DNA of 33,628 nt from positions 1-33,628 of the forward strand of contig NZ_JAUXYO010000182.1 in NCBI RefSeq assembly GCF_030694325.1. The letters run 5' to 3'. The position numbers and the translations under genes were made by a program. The stretch is from Allobosea sp. (lineage in GTDB: Bacteria > Pseudomonadota > Alphaproteobacteria > Rhizobiales > Beijerinckiaceae). Position 1 is the first letter of the stretch; every line of letters starts with the position of its first letter. Shown here in pieces: positions 10,448 through 14,100 of the stretch. The notes below the pieces were generated by a model. The model saw nothing but the letters and a program-made list of their open reading frames with translations. It had not been told where the DNA came from and did not search any database.

Positions 10448-11296
10448 GTGAAACTGCTACGCTTCGGAGCCGCGGGCGCCGAAAAGCCCGGCCTTCTCGA
10501 CGCCAAGGGCGTCCTGCGCGACCTCTCGGGCATCATCCCCGATCTGGCCGGCAAGGCCCTGACCGCCAGCTCGCTGGCGAAAATTGGGGCGCTCGATCCC
10601 GAATCGCGGCCCAAGGTCGATGGCGCGCCGCGCATCGGCGCCTGCGTCGGCGACGTCCGCAACTTCATCGCGGTCGGCCTCAACTTCGCCGACCATGCGG
10701 CCGAGACCGGCACCGAGATCCCGAAGGAGCCGATCCTCTTCAACAAGGCGCCGAACTGCATCGTCGGCCCCAATGACGACGTGATCATTCCCAAGGGCTC
10801 GAAGAAGACGGACTGGGAGGTCGAGCTCGCCATCGTCATCGGCGACGGCGGCTCCTACATCCCCGAGGACAAGGCCATGGCCGCGATCGCGGGCTTTGCC
10901 GTCTGCAACGACGTCTCGGAGCGCGAGTTCCAGATCGAGCGCGGCGGCCAGTGGGCCAAGGGCAAGGGCTGCCCGACCTTTGGCCCGCTCGGCCCCTGGC
11001 TGGTGACGACGGACGAGGTCAAGGACGTCCAGAACCTCGCGATGTGGCTCGAGGTCGATGGCGAGCGCGTCCAGAACGGCTCGAGCAAGACGATGATCTT
11101 CGGCTGCGCCTATCTCGTCCACTATATCAGCCAGTTCATGCGGCTGGATCCGGGCGACGTCATCACCACCGGCACGCCGCCGGGCGTCGGGCTTGGCTTC
11201 AAGCCGCCGCGCTTCCTGAAGGGCGGCGAGATCGTGAAGCTCGGCATCGAGGGCCTCGGCGAGCAGCAGCAGCACTTCAAGGCCTATCAGGGCTGA
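10448..11296 (+). CDS. Fumarylacetoacetate hydrolase-family protein
   Basis: Member of the FAH superfamily, which cleaves or hydrates beta-diketo or 2-keto acids with a divalent metal; relatives are annotated as ureidoglycolate lyase, 2-keto-4-pentenoate hydratase or acylpyruvase. It is 282 residues. The metal site is visible as E124 and E126 in WEVELA and D155 in VCNDVSERE; VGLNFADHA (76-84) and GDVITTGTPPGVG are other family motifs. The GTG start has GGGGGAA seven bases upstream, a strong ribosome site. It is a single gene with no pathway neighbour that would fix the substrate, so only the superfamily is assigned. Confidence 0.88.
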   Translation: MKLLRFGAAGAEKPGLLDAKGVLRDLSGIIPDLAGKALTASSLAKIGALDPESRPKVDGAPRIGACVGDVRNFIAVGLNFADHAAETGTEIPKEPILFNKAPNCIVGPNDDVIIPKGSKKTDWEVELAIVIGDGGSYIPEDKAMAAIAGFAVCNDVSEREFQIERGGQWAKGKGCPTFGPLGPWLVTTDEVKDVQNLAMWLEVDGERVQNGSSKTMIFGCAYLVHYISQFMRLDPGDVITTGTPPGVGLGFKPPRFLKGGEIVKLGIEGLGEQQQHFKAYQG

Positions 11297-11304
11297 CTCT
11301 TTTC

Positions 11305-11513
11305 TTCTCCCACCCATCTCAGGCTTGCCAGAGATGGGAATTCAAAGTGTCAAAGTCGGCAACAGCCGACTTCGGTGGGGAGAAGGTGTCTGCGCAGCAG
11401 ACGGATGAGGGAAGGGTCGCGCAAGCGGCCCTTTCTTGTTTGTGGATGGAGGTTCCGCCTTCATCCGTCACGGCTTCGCCGTGCCACCTTCTCCCCCGAG
11501 GGGAGAAGGTGGC
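11305..11513. repeat. Composite palindromic intergenic repeat, type E
   Basis: Several nested inverted repeats: CCCATCTC...GAGATGGG, AAGTCGGC...GCCGACTT, and CCTTCTCCCC / GGGGAGAAGG near the right end, with CTTCATCCGTC facing GACGGATGAGG. It fills the space between the convergent FAH-family gene and argC. No other terminator is visible there, so it may end both transcripts. Confidence 0.6.
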
Positions 11514-11516
11514 GGC

Positions 11517-12452
11517 TTACTTCTCCGGCAGGCCGAGCATCAGCCGGATGTTCTGCACGGCGGCACCCGAGGCGCCCTTCCCGAGATTGTCGAGCCGCGC
11601 GACCAGCACGGCCTGGCGCAGATCGTCATCGCCGAAGACGCGCAGTTCCAGCTTGTTGGTGTCGTTGAGCGCCTGCGGCTCGAGCTTGCCGCCGGCCTGC
11701 GCGGCGGGGACGACCGAGACATAGGTCGAGCCGGCATAGTGCTCAGCCAGCGCATCGGCGAGATCGGCCGCCTTGGGCTTGCCCGGCAGCGTGTCGAGAT
11801 GCAGCGGCACCGAGACCAGCATGCCCTGCCGGAAATTTCCGACGGACGGAATGAAGATCGGCCGCCGCGTCAGCCGCGCATAACGCTGCAGCTCGGGCAG
11901 GTGCTTGTGCTTGAGGCCCAGCCCATAGAGCTCGAAGGCCGGCGCCGTGCCGGCCTCATAGGCCTCGATCATGCTCTTTCCACCGCCCGAATAACCCGAC
12001 ACGGCATTGATCGTGACGGGATGGTCCTGCGGGATGAAGCCGGCATCGACCAGCGGCCGCAGCAGCGCGATGCCCCCCGTCGGATAGCAGCCCGGATTCG
12101 AGACGCGGGTGGCCTTGGCGATGGTGGCGGCGTGGCCGTGCTCGAGCTCGGCGAAGCCGTAGACCCAGTCCGGCGCGACGCGATAGGCGGTCGAGGCGTC
12201 GACGATCTTGGGCGACTTCGCTCCCAGCGCGTCGGCGAGCGCGACCGATTCCTTGGCGGCGTCGTCGGGCAGGCAGAGCACGACGAGATCGACCTGCGCC
12301 ATCATCTCCTGGCGGGCGGCCGGGTCCTTGCGCTTGTCGGGGTCGATGCTGCGGACGACGACGCCCGGCATCGCGGCCAGACGGTCGCGGATGCCGAGCC
12401 CGGTCGTGCCGGCTTCGCCGTCGATGAAGATGGATTTCGGGTTCTGGCTCAT
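11517..12452 (-). CDS. argC: N-acetyl-gamma-glutamyl-phosphate reductase (ArgC, short type)
   Basis: Third step of arginine biosynthesis: reduces N-acetylglutamyl phosphate to N-acetylglutamate semialdehyde with NADPH. It has 311 residues, the shorter (type 2) ArgC form. The nucleotide-binding start is IFIDGEAGTTGLGIRDRL (residues 8-25), and the catalytic cysteine is C122 in SNPGCYPTG. The ATG at 12452 follows GAGGG at good spacing. It is preceded by a promoter (12630-12658), a short arginine-rich leader ORF (12564-12623) and a terminator hairpin (12511-12535), which together suggest attenuation by arginine supply. In many Hyphomicrobiales argC lies close to rplM-rpsI; here an agmatinase, a small membrane gene and an SDR lie between. 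Confidence 0.96.
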   Translation of the reverse strand: MSQNPKSIFIDGEAGTTGLGIRDRLAAMPGVVVRSIDPDKRKDPAARQEMMAQVDLVVLCLPDDAAKESVALADALGAKSPKIVDASTAYRVAPDWVYGFAELEHGHAATIAKATRVSNPGCYPTGGIALLRPLVDAGFIPQDHPVTINAVSGYSGGGKSMIEAYEAGTAPAFELYGLGLKHKHLPELQRYARLTRRPIFIPSVGNFRQGMLVSVPLHLDTLPGKPKAADLADALAEHYAGSTYVSVVPAAQAGGKLEPQALNDTNKLELRVFGDDDLRQAVLVARLDNLGKGASGAAVQNIRLMLGLPEK

Positions 12453-12510
12453 CGGACCCTCGCAAGGCGTCTGGGGGATCGGCTCAAGAAGCTTGGCCGG
12501 CTTCGGGCAT

Positions 12511-12535
12511 AAAAAAACCGCGCTCGGGGCGCGGT
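12511..12535 (-). terminator. Terminator hairpin in the argC leader (candidate attenuator)
   Basis: In the RNA, ACCGCGC pairs with GCGCGGU around the loop CCCGA and is followed by U7. It lies 58 nt before the argC start and about 30 nt after the leader-peptide stop. RNA segment CCGAGCG (12527-12521, loop plus part of the 3' arm) is fully complementary to CGCUCGG (12563-12557), the bases right after the leader stop codon, so an antiterminator can compete with it. Confidence 0.75.
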
Positions 12536-12563
12536 CGCGGACAATCGGGCTGCAAGCCGAGCG

Positions 12564-12623
12564 TCATCGCGGTCGCGCAAGGGCGGCCGTGGCGGTGCGA
12601 CGTCGGGACAGGTTCATGGTCAT
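12564..12623 (-). CDS. Putative arginine leader peptide upstream of argC
   Basis: Reads MTMNLSRRRTATAALARPR then TGA: 19 residues with Arg at 7, 8, 9, 17 and 19, encoded CGA CGT CGC, CGA and CGA, which are mostly codons that look uncommon in the neighbouring genes. The predicted -10 ends six bases before the ATG, so the transcript would begin at the start codon (leaderless). That is the arrangement reported for trpL of Sinorhizobium meliloti, and it explains the lack of a Shine-Dalgarno. A ribosome stalled at Arg7-9 would leave CGCUCGG (12563-12557) free to form the antiterminator; one reaching the stop codon would cover it and let the terminator form. Translation of this ORF is inferred. An equally short chance ORF is possible in GC-rich DNA, but promoter, ORF and terminator fit together well. 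Confidence 0.6.
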   Translation of the reverse strand: MTMNLSRRRTATAALARPR

Positions 12624-12629
12624 GGGCGG

Positions 12630-12658
12630 GATATGAGGGAGGGAGGGGGCGCTGTCAA
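12630..12658 (-). promoter_or_regulatory. Promoter of the argC leader transcript
   Basis: On the minus strand, a perfect TTGACA (12658-12653), a 17-bp spacer and CATATC (12635-12630). The seventh base after the -10 is the A of the leader ATG (12623). Confidence 0.65.
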
Positions 12659-12665
12659 TTGCATC

Positions 12666-12789
12666 GTCATTCTCGGGCAGCGCAAAGAGACGACCGGTGT
12701 CATGGTCGGCCTTGTGCCGACCATCCACGTCTTCCCGTATCGAGGGTTGGGTTCAAGACGTGGATGCTCGGCACAAGGCCGAGCATGAC
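12666..12789. repeat. Palindromic intergenic repeat, type D, copy 1
   Basis: Starts GTCATTCTCGGG and ends GCATGAC. Inside are ATGGTCGG...CCGACCAT, CCACGTCTT...AAGACGTGG and GCTCGGC...GCCGAGC inverted pairs. It lies downstream of the agmatinase-family gene and just upstream of the argC promoter, and probably ends the agmatinase transcript. Related elements are at 16436-16546 and 18654-18732. Confidence 0.7.
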
Positions 12790-12845
12790 GGAAAGGCGTT
12801 CCTGAACGATGCGAGTCGCTTGGCGCCGACAGCCGACAAATCGAT

Positions 12846-13802
12846 TCAACGCGTTGTCTTCAGCGCCAGCGCCTGGATGTGGTGCTGCACCAGGGTCGAG
12901 CCGGCGATCGCGGTGATGTCCGCATGGTCGTAAGGCGGCGAGACCTCGACGAGGTCCATGCCGCGGATGTCGAGGTCGCGCAGGCCCCAGACCAGGCGCA
13001 GCGCCTGGTCGGCCGACAGCCCGCCCGAGACCGGCGTGCCCGTGCCCGGCGCGAAGGCAGGATCGAGCGCGTCGATGTCGAAGGTGAGATAGGCCGGCCC
13101 CTCCCCGACCCGCTCGCGGATCCGCGCCAGCGTCCCTGCCACACCGAGTTCATGAACAGTGTAGGCGTCGAGGATCGCGATGCCGCCATCGCGCGGCGCG
13201 ACGGTGCGGATGCCGATCTGGATCGAGCGTTCGACGTCTATCAGGCCCTCGAGCACCGCCTCCAGCACGAAGGAGCCGTGGCCGATGGCGCCGACGCCGT
13301 CATCCCAGGTGTCCTGATGCGCGTCGAACTGGATCAGCGCGAGCCGGCCATGGCGGGCGACATGGGCGCGCAGCAGCGGCAGCGTGACGAAATGGTCGCC
13401 ACCCAGCGTCACCAGATGCGCGCCGGAGGCGAGGATATTCGCGGCTTCCGTCTCGATGGCCCGCGCGCAGCCCGGCAGATCGCCGCGCGGCAGCATGCAG
13501 TCGCCATAATCGAGCGCCGCGAGATGCGCGAAGGGATCGAGACCGGAGGGATATTGCGGGTCGCCGTCGAAGATCGCGCTGGCGCGGCGGATCGCCTGCG
13601 GGCCGAAGCGGGCGCCGGGCCGGTTGGTCACGGCCAGATCGAAGGGCACGCCCCAGATCACGAGATCGCAGCCGGCGACGTCCTTGCCATAGCGCCGGCG
13701 CATGAAGGAGAGCGCCCCGGCATAGGTCGGGTCGGCCGCGCCGCCACGGCGCTCGCCGGTGAAGGCGTGGTCGATCGCGCCCGGACCGGCCTGCTCGGTC
13801 AT
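12846..13802 (-). CDS. speB: Agmatinase-family ureohydrolase
   Basis: Ureohydrolase with a binuclear manganese site, hydrolysing agmatine to putrescine and urea or a related guanidino compound. It has 318 residues. Metal ligands are all present: H137 in GGDHF, D160, H162 and D164 in DAHQD, and D242 and D244 in TFDIDALDPAF. The ATG at 13802 has GGGGAG eight bases upstream; the frame extends to 13952 but that part overlaps the preceding small gene. It lies on the same strand 16 bp after that gene. Proximity to argC suggests arginine or polyamine metabolism, but guanidinobutyrase, guanidinopropionase or guanidinase activity is not excluded, so the symbol is by family only. Confidence 0.88.
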   Translation of the reverse strand: MTEQAGPGAIDHAFTGERRGGAADPTYAGALSFMRRRYGKDVAGCDLVIWGVPFDLAVTNRPGARFGPQAIRRASAIFDGDPQYPSGLDPFAHLAALDYGDCMLPRGDLPGCARAIETEAANILASGAHLVTLGGDHFVTLPLLRAHVARHGRLALIQFDAHQDTWDDGVGAIGHGSFVLEAVLEGLIDVERSIQIGIRTVAPRDGGIAILDAYTVHELGVAGTLARIRERVGEGPAYLTFDIDALDPAFAPGTGTPVSGGLSADQALRLVWGLRDLDIRGMDLVEVSPPYDHADITAIAGSTLVQHHIQALALKTTR

Positions 13803-13818
13803 CGCGACGCTCCCCTGC

Positions 13819-14100
13819 TCACGGGCGGCGCCCCACCAGCCAGACATAGAGGCACCAGGGCAGGATGAGCGCCAGCCCCGAGAGCACCAGCCGCAGCGTC
13901 GTCCAGGCGACCGGATTCTGCAGCGCCCGCCCGTCCAGCTCCGGCACGCCATGGATCAGGCCGAGCGCGACGGCCGGCGCCAGAAAGATCACCAGTGCAT
14001 TGGCGATGCGCCGCCCGCGCGGCAGGTCTCGCCGCGCCAGCGCGAGCAGCGCGGGTACGGCGACCATGCCGAAGGCGATGAGGATCAGGAGGACGCGCAT
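13819..14100 (-). CDS. Small integral membrane protein, unknown
   Basis: A 93-residue protein with three hydrophobic segments (about residues 2-20, 33-50 and 68-88) separated by basic loops (ALARRDLPRGRR) and ending in GRRP. I do not recognise the family. The ATG at 14100 was chosen because the hydrophobic protein starts there; the frame upstream reads through a repeat element with no coding character. It ends 16 bp before the agmatinase-family start on the same strand, so the two are likely translated from one mRNA. Confidence 0.65.
   Translation of the reverse strand: MRVLLILIAFGMVAVPALLALARRDLPRGRRIANALVIFLAPAVALGLIHGVPELDGRALQNPVAWTTLRLVLSGLALILPWCLYVWLVGRRP

Follow-up and report, generated by a model that had tools for sequence, protein, structure and literature searches.

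A predicted ribosome-mediated attenuator with consecutive arginine codons upstream of argC in Bosea and related Alphaproteobacteria

Layout of the argC leader

The window, a stretch of 33,628 nucleotides from an Allobosea genome (contig NZ_JAUXYO010000182.1), encodes on its minus strand an N-acetyl-gamma-glutamyl-phosphate reductase of the TIGR01851 (argC_other) type (406 bits versus a cut-off of 230). The gene, argC, lies at 11517..12452 with its ATG at 12452 and is the predicted target of the leader described here. An agmatinase gene (12846-13952) is located upstream on the same strand. The leader between them, likewise on the minus strand, begins with a promoter-like pair, a -35 box TTGACA (12653..12658) whose first base is 35 nt 5' of the leader ATG and, after a 17-nt spacer, a -10 box CATATC (12630..12635) that lies 6 nt 5' of the same ATG. 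The leader ORF that follows, MTMNLSRRRTATAALARPR, has 19 codons and a stop (12564..12623, ATG at 12623), and Arg7 to Arg9 (CGA CGT CGC, 12597..12605) are its putative regulatory codons. Downstream is a terminator hairpin (12516..12536) of seven Watson-Crick pairs and a G-U pair (stem ACCGCGC/GCGCGGT, 12535-12529/12523-12517), which ends in a run of seven T (U7, 12511..12517). The initial annotation had described this series, from the promoter through the 19-residue ORF, its stop and a 7-bp terminator with U7 to argC, and every one of its coordinates was confirmed.

Two further features of the neighborhood were observed. A palindromic dispersed repeat at 12700-12789 separates the agmatinase gene from the leader promoter, and pieces resembling it occur on contigs C3, C11, C103, C216, and others of the same genome. 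On the 3' side of argC, a 286-aa ORF (10457-11317, minus strand) has no match in Pfam (E 0.001) or NCBIfam (E 1e-5); it overlaps a similarly long ORF on the plus strand, and either strand could be coding. A scan of positions 12300-12900 against Rfam (E up to 1) returned no family at the leader and no T-box match; the sole match in this interval, to mir-1258, falls outside the leader and scores 22.9 bits against a gathering score of 74.

The 248 nt upstream of argC were shuffled 5000 times with preservation of dinucleotides. An ATG-initiated ORF of 10-30 aa with three consecutive arginines (RRR) appeared in 145 shuffles, such an ORF with a T5 run no more than 75 nt from its stop in 9, and both of these plus a TTGAC whose first base lay 35-38 nt 5' of the ATG in 1; the hairpin was not among the features required. 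By chance alone the layout is therefore uncommon, yet not impossible, and its conservation is the stronger test.

Conservation of the leader and of its arginine codons

The best 80 named argC relatives of a longer list were taken with their upstream DNA and read with a script that required an ORF with two consecutive Arg codons (RR) followed by a terminator-like end, that is, a GC-rich 3' arm and a T-run. After removal of one false positive (L062), a leader was present at 50 of the 80 loci, including all 21 Bosea-type loci, 19 of 20 from Microvirga, all four from Chelatococcus, and six others (Alsobacter, Salinarimonas, three Hyphomicrobiaceae MAGs, and Rhizobiales 65-9). In the Microvirga exception (L067), the ORF is present but is followed by no matching terminator, and at two loci (L093 and L096) the leader appears, by eye, to be eroded. 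The script found no leader at argC_other in 27 other loci of the best 80, L062 included, and the loci negative by this measure include Rhodopseudomonas, Bradyrhizobium, Labrys, and Rhodospirillales. Among 61 genomes of the same genus, the window's own counted, 59 carry the leader; of the two exceptions, one (G055, by sequence the genome of L093) has an eroded copy and in the other (G030) only the other argC type was matched. It should be noted that these 61 genomes and the 80 named loci overlap, that many of the sequences are close relatives, and that RR and a terminator occur in all aligned leaders partly by construction because the scripts demanded both. The initial annotation had pointed to the argC upstream DNA of relatives as the place to look, and the Arg run and the terminator are conserved there at the frequencies just given.

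A covariance model (R1) was built from the 50 leaders. When 385 genomes of the class were scanned, five had a match at E <= 1e-6, one of them the window's own; the four genomes outside the order matched with 62-84 bits, and the gene downstream of the match is argC_other in three of them and encodes an acetylornithine transaminase in the fourth. Within the order, 141 of 397 genomes matched at E <= 0.01. The best 30 of these loci included 20 with an Arg ORF and terminator, before argC (18), argD (1), or a Rid-family gene (1), and in the other 10 the match was put down to an ordinary terminator belonging to another gene. A set of 19 named genomes yielded 16 loci that were read, of which three precede argC and 13 were judged not to be Arg leaders. 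The window's own genome has no R1 match above 26 bits besides that at argC, and seven matches scoring below argC were read as no leaders; a partial copy of the leader on contig C216 lies inside a coding sequence (cobyrinate synthase by translation) and was attributed to chance. As computed, then, the putative arginine attenuator is conserved in part of the Hyphomicrobiales and is seen in four genomes of other alphaproteobacterial orders.

Conservation extends to the promoter-like elements. In 48 of the 50 aligned leaders the nearest TTGAC starts 35-38 nt 5' of the leader ATG, and inspection of the two exceptions revealed that the script had taken a longer start (L088) or that a second TTGAC is present (L107). 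A CATA-type hexamer occupies the same place in most of the same-genus leaders, by eye. Because the -10 box lies 6 nt before the ATG, transcription is predicted to start at, or adjoining, the leader ATG, and the first ribosome would therefore probably load on a leaderless mRNA. An SD-like motif was found 5' of the leader ORF in just 2 of the 50 aligned leaders. From the promoter spacing and this absence of an SD motif, the leader ORF is probably leaderless.

The constraint on the Arg codons was computed by pairwise comparison of 22 equal-length Bosea-type leaders with RRR at positions 7-9. In codons 7-9, differences at the first, second, and third positions numbered 0, 0, and 42, all of them synonymous; the constraint here is evident chiefly from the near absence of change, because all 42 differences come from two deviating sequences. 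Codons 13-19 display an excess of third-position differences (115/117/295), and no such constraint was detected in codons 2-6 (404/622/302) or 10-12 (359/385/276). Across the 50 leaders, which were preselected for RR, the Arg run comprises two, three, or four codons in 6, 39, and 5 cases, respectively, the distance from the first Arg of the run to the stop is 10-13 codons and varies by whole codons, and a C-terminal ARxR recurs in many. The 149 codons of these runs are solely CGA (63), CGC (53), and CGT (33), with CGG, AGA, and AGG absent and CGA leading the run in 47 of the 50. The Arg codons of the argC and agmatinase genes of the window are CGC (27), CGG (16 of 50), CGT (5), CGA (1), and AGA (1). 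The three codons CGA, CGC, and CGT would all be decoded by one tRNA-Arg, with the anticodon ICG. According to a modeling paper, which synonymous codon serves as the regulatory codon matters in attenuation (PMC1183508).

Predicted RNA switch and attenuation model

In the full leader of the window, segment 1 (12598..12606, which includes Arg codons) is predicted to pair with segment 2 (12557..12566, the stop codon with CGCUCGG) as a 1:2 hairpin (12606-12598 with 12566-12557), and the terminator forms beside it. When a ribosome was masked at Arg7, Arg8, or Arg9, the RNA refolded into an antiterminator that uses the terminator arms. With the mask at Arg7 or Arg8, its 5' half (12555..12588), composed of codons 12-19, the stop, and following nucleotides and thus including segment 2, pairs with a 3' half (12516..12551) that consumes the terminator arms (12588-12555 with 12551-12516). 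The terminator re-forms when the mask is placed at codon 17 or at the stop. The antiterminator predicted by this modeling therefore joins codons 12-19 and the nucleotides 3' of the stop to the segment that leads into and includes the terminator arms. The initial annotation had assigned this role to a shorter pairing, between CGCTCGG right after the stop (12563-12557) and CCGAGCG in the terminator (12527-12521). Both are present and complementary, but the full-leader fold of the window places CGCUCGG opposite the Arg codons in the 1:2 hairpin, and the 7 nt that follow the stop have a perfect Watson-Crick partner downstream in just 8 of the 50 leaders. The shorter pairing depends on the terminator loop, which varies, and was rejected as the main antiterminator.

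The computed dependence of the mutually exclusive folds on ribosome position is general among the leaders. The profile of terminator probability (P) along the ORF was calculated with a 12-nt mask that starts at the first base of the A-site codon and with folding at 37 C, both being assumptions. Over the 50 leaders, the mean P of the terminator is minimal (0.20) with the A site at the first or second Arg, reaches 0.95-1.00 from five codons past the minimum, and is 0.97-0.98 ten or more codons on. When the codons were shuffled synonymously, the mean at the first Arg was 0.60, and 44 of the 50 leaders fell below their own control. Tallied leader by leader (n = 51, since L115, with its terminator clipped by the script, is counted here but left out of the alignment, the profile, and the codon counts), the terminator P is not above 0.5 in 42 with the mask at the first Arg, the terminator winning in 9; at the third Arg the corresponding numbers are 37 and 14. 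With the ribosome at the stop, P is above 0.5 in 49 of 51 leaders (mean 0.96). The classical attenuation logic originally proposed for the locus is thus borne out by masked folding. Given this profile and the shuffle controls, the Arg run appears to be placed where stalling matters and the RNA to be under selection beyond that on the peptide.

Unmasked leaders fold ambiguously, with a mean terminator P of 0.53 that is above 0.5 in 27 of 51. The Arg run pairs around the stop with P of 0.88 in the window; the mean over the 50 leaders is 0.55, versus 0.30 in synonymous shuffles, and the value is above 0.5 in 24 of the 50. The six aligned terminator pairs form in 300 of 300 cells, in leaders preselected for a GC-rich 3' arm and T-run. 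Covariation is thin, with both sides changing in one of the six terminator pairs and a slide by +3 scoring equally, and RNAalifold on the whole alignment recovered little besides the terminator.

We interpret the locus as an attenuator of argC transcription in which the translating ribosome senses charged tRNA-Arg, a reading to which we assign a probability of roughly 0.87. From the layout and folds we infer the 5' end, translation of the leader, termination, and a response to arginine, as follows. Transcription would start at or adjoining the AUG, and the first ribosome would probably load on leaderless mRNA. Under ample arginine, the ribosome would pass Arg7-9, reach the stop, and cover segment 2, in which case the terminator hairpin with its U7 would form and transcription would stop before argC. 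Under scarcity of charged tRNA-Arg, the ribosome would wait at Arg7-9. Codons 12-19, together with the bases that follow the stop, would then be available for pairing with the stretch that runs into the terminator; with the antiterminator paired, the terminator would be blocked and argC transcribed. The 1:2 hairpin, in which the Arg codons pair with the stop region, may favor termination when the leader is untranslated.

Arginine leaders before other genes, known systems, and rival readings

Arg leaders also precede genes other than argC_other. In one genus of the order (f20 g26), a shorter leader (such as MNTISTSTRRRSLILR) with a terminator precedes another argC at eleven loci; the product of this argC is 29-33% identical to the ArgC of the window over the aligned part; the one such gene that was scanned is of the TIGR01850 type. 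In family f2, an Arg leader with a terminator is present at 6 of 28 argD loci, four found by script (L299, L308, L311, and L318, with L308 being the same gene as L148) and two by eye (L303 and L305). Masked folding of these six revealed a clear switch in L311, L318, and L303 and none such in L299, L308, and L305. With L319, Arg leaders precede argD in seven genomes. A further RRR leader, MSPYAINRRRQFENPARARGR, with a terminator is found before a Rid-family gene (L145, genome G284, contig C2), where the family match is below its cut-off. No leader with a terminator was detected at the 20 argG loci that were read, a further one (L198) having been taken on the wrong strand, or at the 6 of 20 argJ loci that were read. 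Since leaders stand before three kinds of arginine gene, it is arginine, and not one gene family, that appears to matter.

Attenuation by a leader peptide has long been known for tryptophan and histidine, and in fungi the arginine attenuator peptide, encoded by a short uORF, makes an arginine gene responsive to arginine; it differs from the argC leader in being eukaryotic, in acting on translation, and in stalling at high arginine. The trp, his, leu, ilv, thr, and phe attenuators, as described in PMC1183508, share with the argC leader a short ORF, a run of regulatory codons, a four-segment RNA, exclusive antiterminator and terminator folds, and a U-run terminator before a biosynthesis gene, whereas the argC leader has Arg codons, an arginine gene, no SD motif, and its AUG at the predicted start. 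The Sinorhizobium meliloti trpL (rnTrpL, peTrpL) is an alphaproteobacterial leaderless leader ORF with an attenuator (PMC7298713, PMC10117765), and the start predicted at argC would fit this type; trpL has Trp codons and controls trpE, and no sequence relation is claimed. A candidate attenuator in the cysS leader of Rhodobacterales (uORFC-8-2) also has tandem regulatory codons in an alphaproteobacterial setting, but these are Cys codons before a tRNA-synthetase gene (PMC8632094).

Leaders that sense arginine through Arg codons have been described as well. Two consecutive Arg codons in Salmonella speF orf34 (DUF2618) sense arginine via ribosome pausing, but, according to PMC6386406, the leader has an SD motif and controls ornithine decarboxylase through Rho, RBS sequestration, and RNase G, with no intrinsic terminator switch. 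The argC leader is not of this type; the HIRRT core is absent from its peptide, by eye, and the gene downstream is argC. In Staphylococcus aureus, Arg codons in the short rbfL leader sense arginine limitation; these are AGA/AGG codons, regulation is by RBS occlusion, and expression falls when arginine is short (PMC13009471). Arginine biosynthesis is the target of neither speF orf34 nor rbfL, and neither works by switching an intrinsic terminator. Full-text searches of the open-licence PMC literature returned, among the papers listed, none whose title or opening lines of the abstract deal with an Arg-codon attenuator of bacterial arginine biosynthesis, and the words argC and arginine are absent from the main texts of PMC2965389 and PMC1273637. 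The earlier statement that no arginine leader of this kind was known for argC needs to be qualified by speF orf34 and rbfL. The mechanism is known in kind; its arginine specificity and argC target are new, as far as the literature search reached.

That the described Arg-codon leaders act by other routes raises the question of whether argC is controlled after initiation by Rho, RNase, or exposure of its RBS, in the style of speF orf34 or rbfL, with the hairpin being secondary. A uORF at Bosea argD, where there is no evident U-run terminator just downstream, lends this some color. At argC, 59 of 61 same-genus genomes have a GC hairpin and U-run downstream of the ORF, and this hairpin is precisely what the predicted refolding disrupts, so that such a route is quite improbable. 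The presence of the agmatinase gene upstream on the same strand would suit the simpler explanation that the hairpin marks the end of the agmatinase transcript and that the ORF is incidental. An agmatinase is found upstream in only 20 of the 50 leader loci (three loci being too short to tell), yet promoter, ORF, and hairpin stay together, and the terminator accordingly belongs with the leader; further, the Arg codons vary only synonymously among the 22 Bosea-type leaders, and we regard this explanation as extremely unlikely.

It could also be proposed that the leader encodes a stalling peptide for arginine, ornithine, polyamines, or a macrolide (R-x-R) instead of sensing charged tRNA-Arg. An Arg-Leu-Arg motif is cited, in a source that treats an hflX uORF, for antibiotic-resistance leader peptides, and many argC leaders have the C-terminal ARxR. 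Residues 2-6 and 10-12 vary freely, though, and the f20 g26 leaders retain little besides the Arg run and the final Arg. Arrest peptides generally need more fixed sequence than the argC leader keeps. With the controlled genes also being ones that make arginine, a stalling peptide is very unlikely here, and attenuation through charged tRNA-Arg remains the preferred reading.

Arginine biosynthesis is usually described as repressed by ArgR. Among 150 genomes of the order, none had a match to the ArgR family PF01316 above cut-off, a single weak match lying below it, and the window's own genome has no match to the Arg_repressor family; the positive controls, E. coli, B. subtilis, and others of the control set, do match. 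A survey of 33 regulator groups places ArgR in many gammaproteobacterial groups and reports its absence from other proteobacterial classes (PMC5343134). A 2005 paper states that in other species T-boxes control arginine genes at the RNA level, and it assigns attenuators to histidine, threonine, and phenylalanine (PMC1262725). A conserved Arg-codon attenuator before argC would be a direct and testable answer to arginine sensing without ArgR; if it is real, classical attenuation would come to include arginine among the amino acids it senses, and the leader would offer a natural reporter of tRNA-Arg charging in its host bacteria. A broader proposal, to which we give somewhat less than even odds, is that attenuation by Arg leaders is the general arginine sensor of ArgR-less Alphaproteobacteria, with a regulon before both argC types and argD that is old or has evolved repeatedly, a translational version at Bosea argD, and perhaps leader peptides or attenuator RNAs that act in trans, by analogy with S. 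meliloti trpL.

Several other observations concern the upstream regions of arginine genes. The uORF at Bosea argD contains two invariant CGA CGA pairs in 21 of the 21 best loci, about 200 nt before the argD match, and its commonest form is MRMTARR[ED]...WLRR; in the copy of the window's own genome (L178, contig C282), a hairpin GCGACGA/TCGTCGC surrounds the stop. Because this uORF has neither an evident U-run terminator just downstream nor a third-position excess in the coding-constraint test, both an RNA element and a translational leader are possible. Inspection by eye of f2 argD loci such as L291, L293, L297, L306, and L307 revealed a promoter-like pair immediately followed by a GCCGCC/GGCGGC-type hairpin and a U-run, with no evident leader ORF and with a recurring GATTCGT-like motif farther upstream; a different attenuator or an operator may act at these loci. 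The window's own genome (G000) has no ArgJ (TIGR00120) match at E 1e-60, whereas 20 of 20 other genomes of the genus that were searched do, which is probably due to a gap in an assembly of 357 contigs. Upstream of Bosea argG (L194-L214, with L206 from the window's own genome), nearly all loci read share a promoter-like element that centers around GATCAGAAGGTTCCGATTGC and continues with GCGATAGTGCG or a near variant; it resembles a controlled promoter, and no leader was seen with it.
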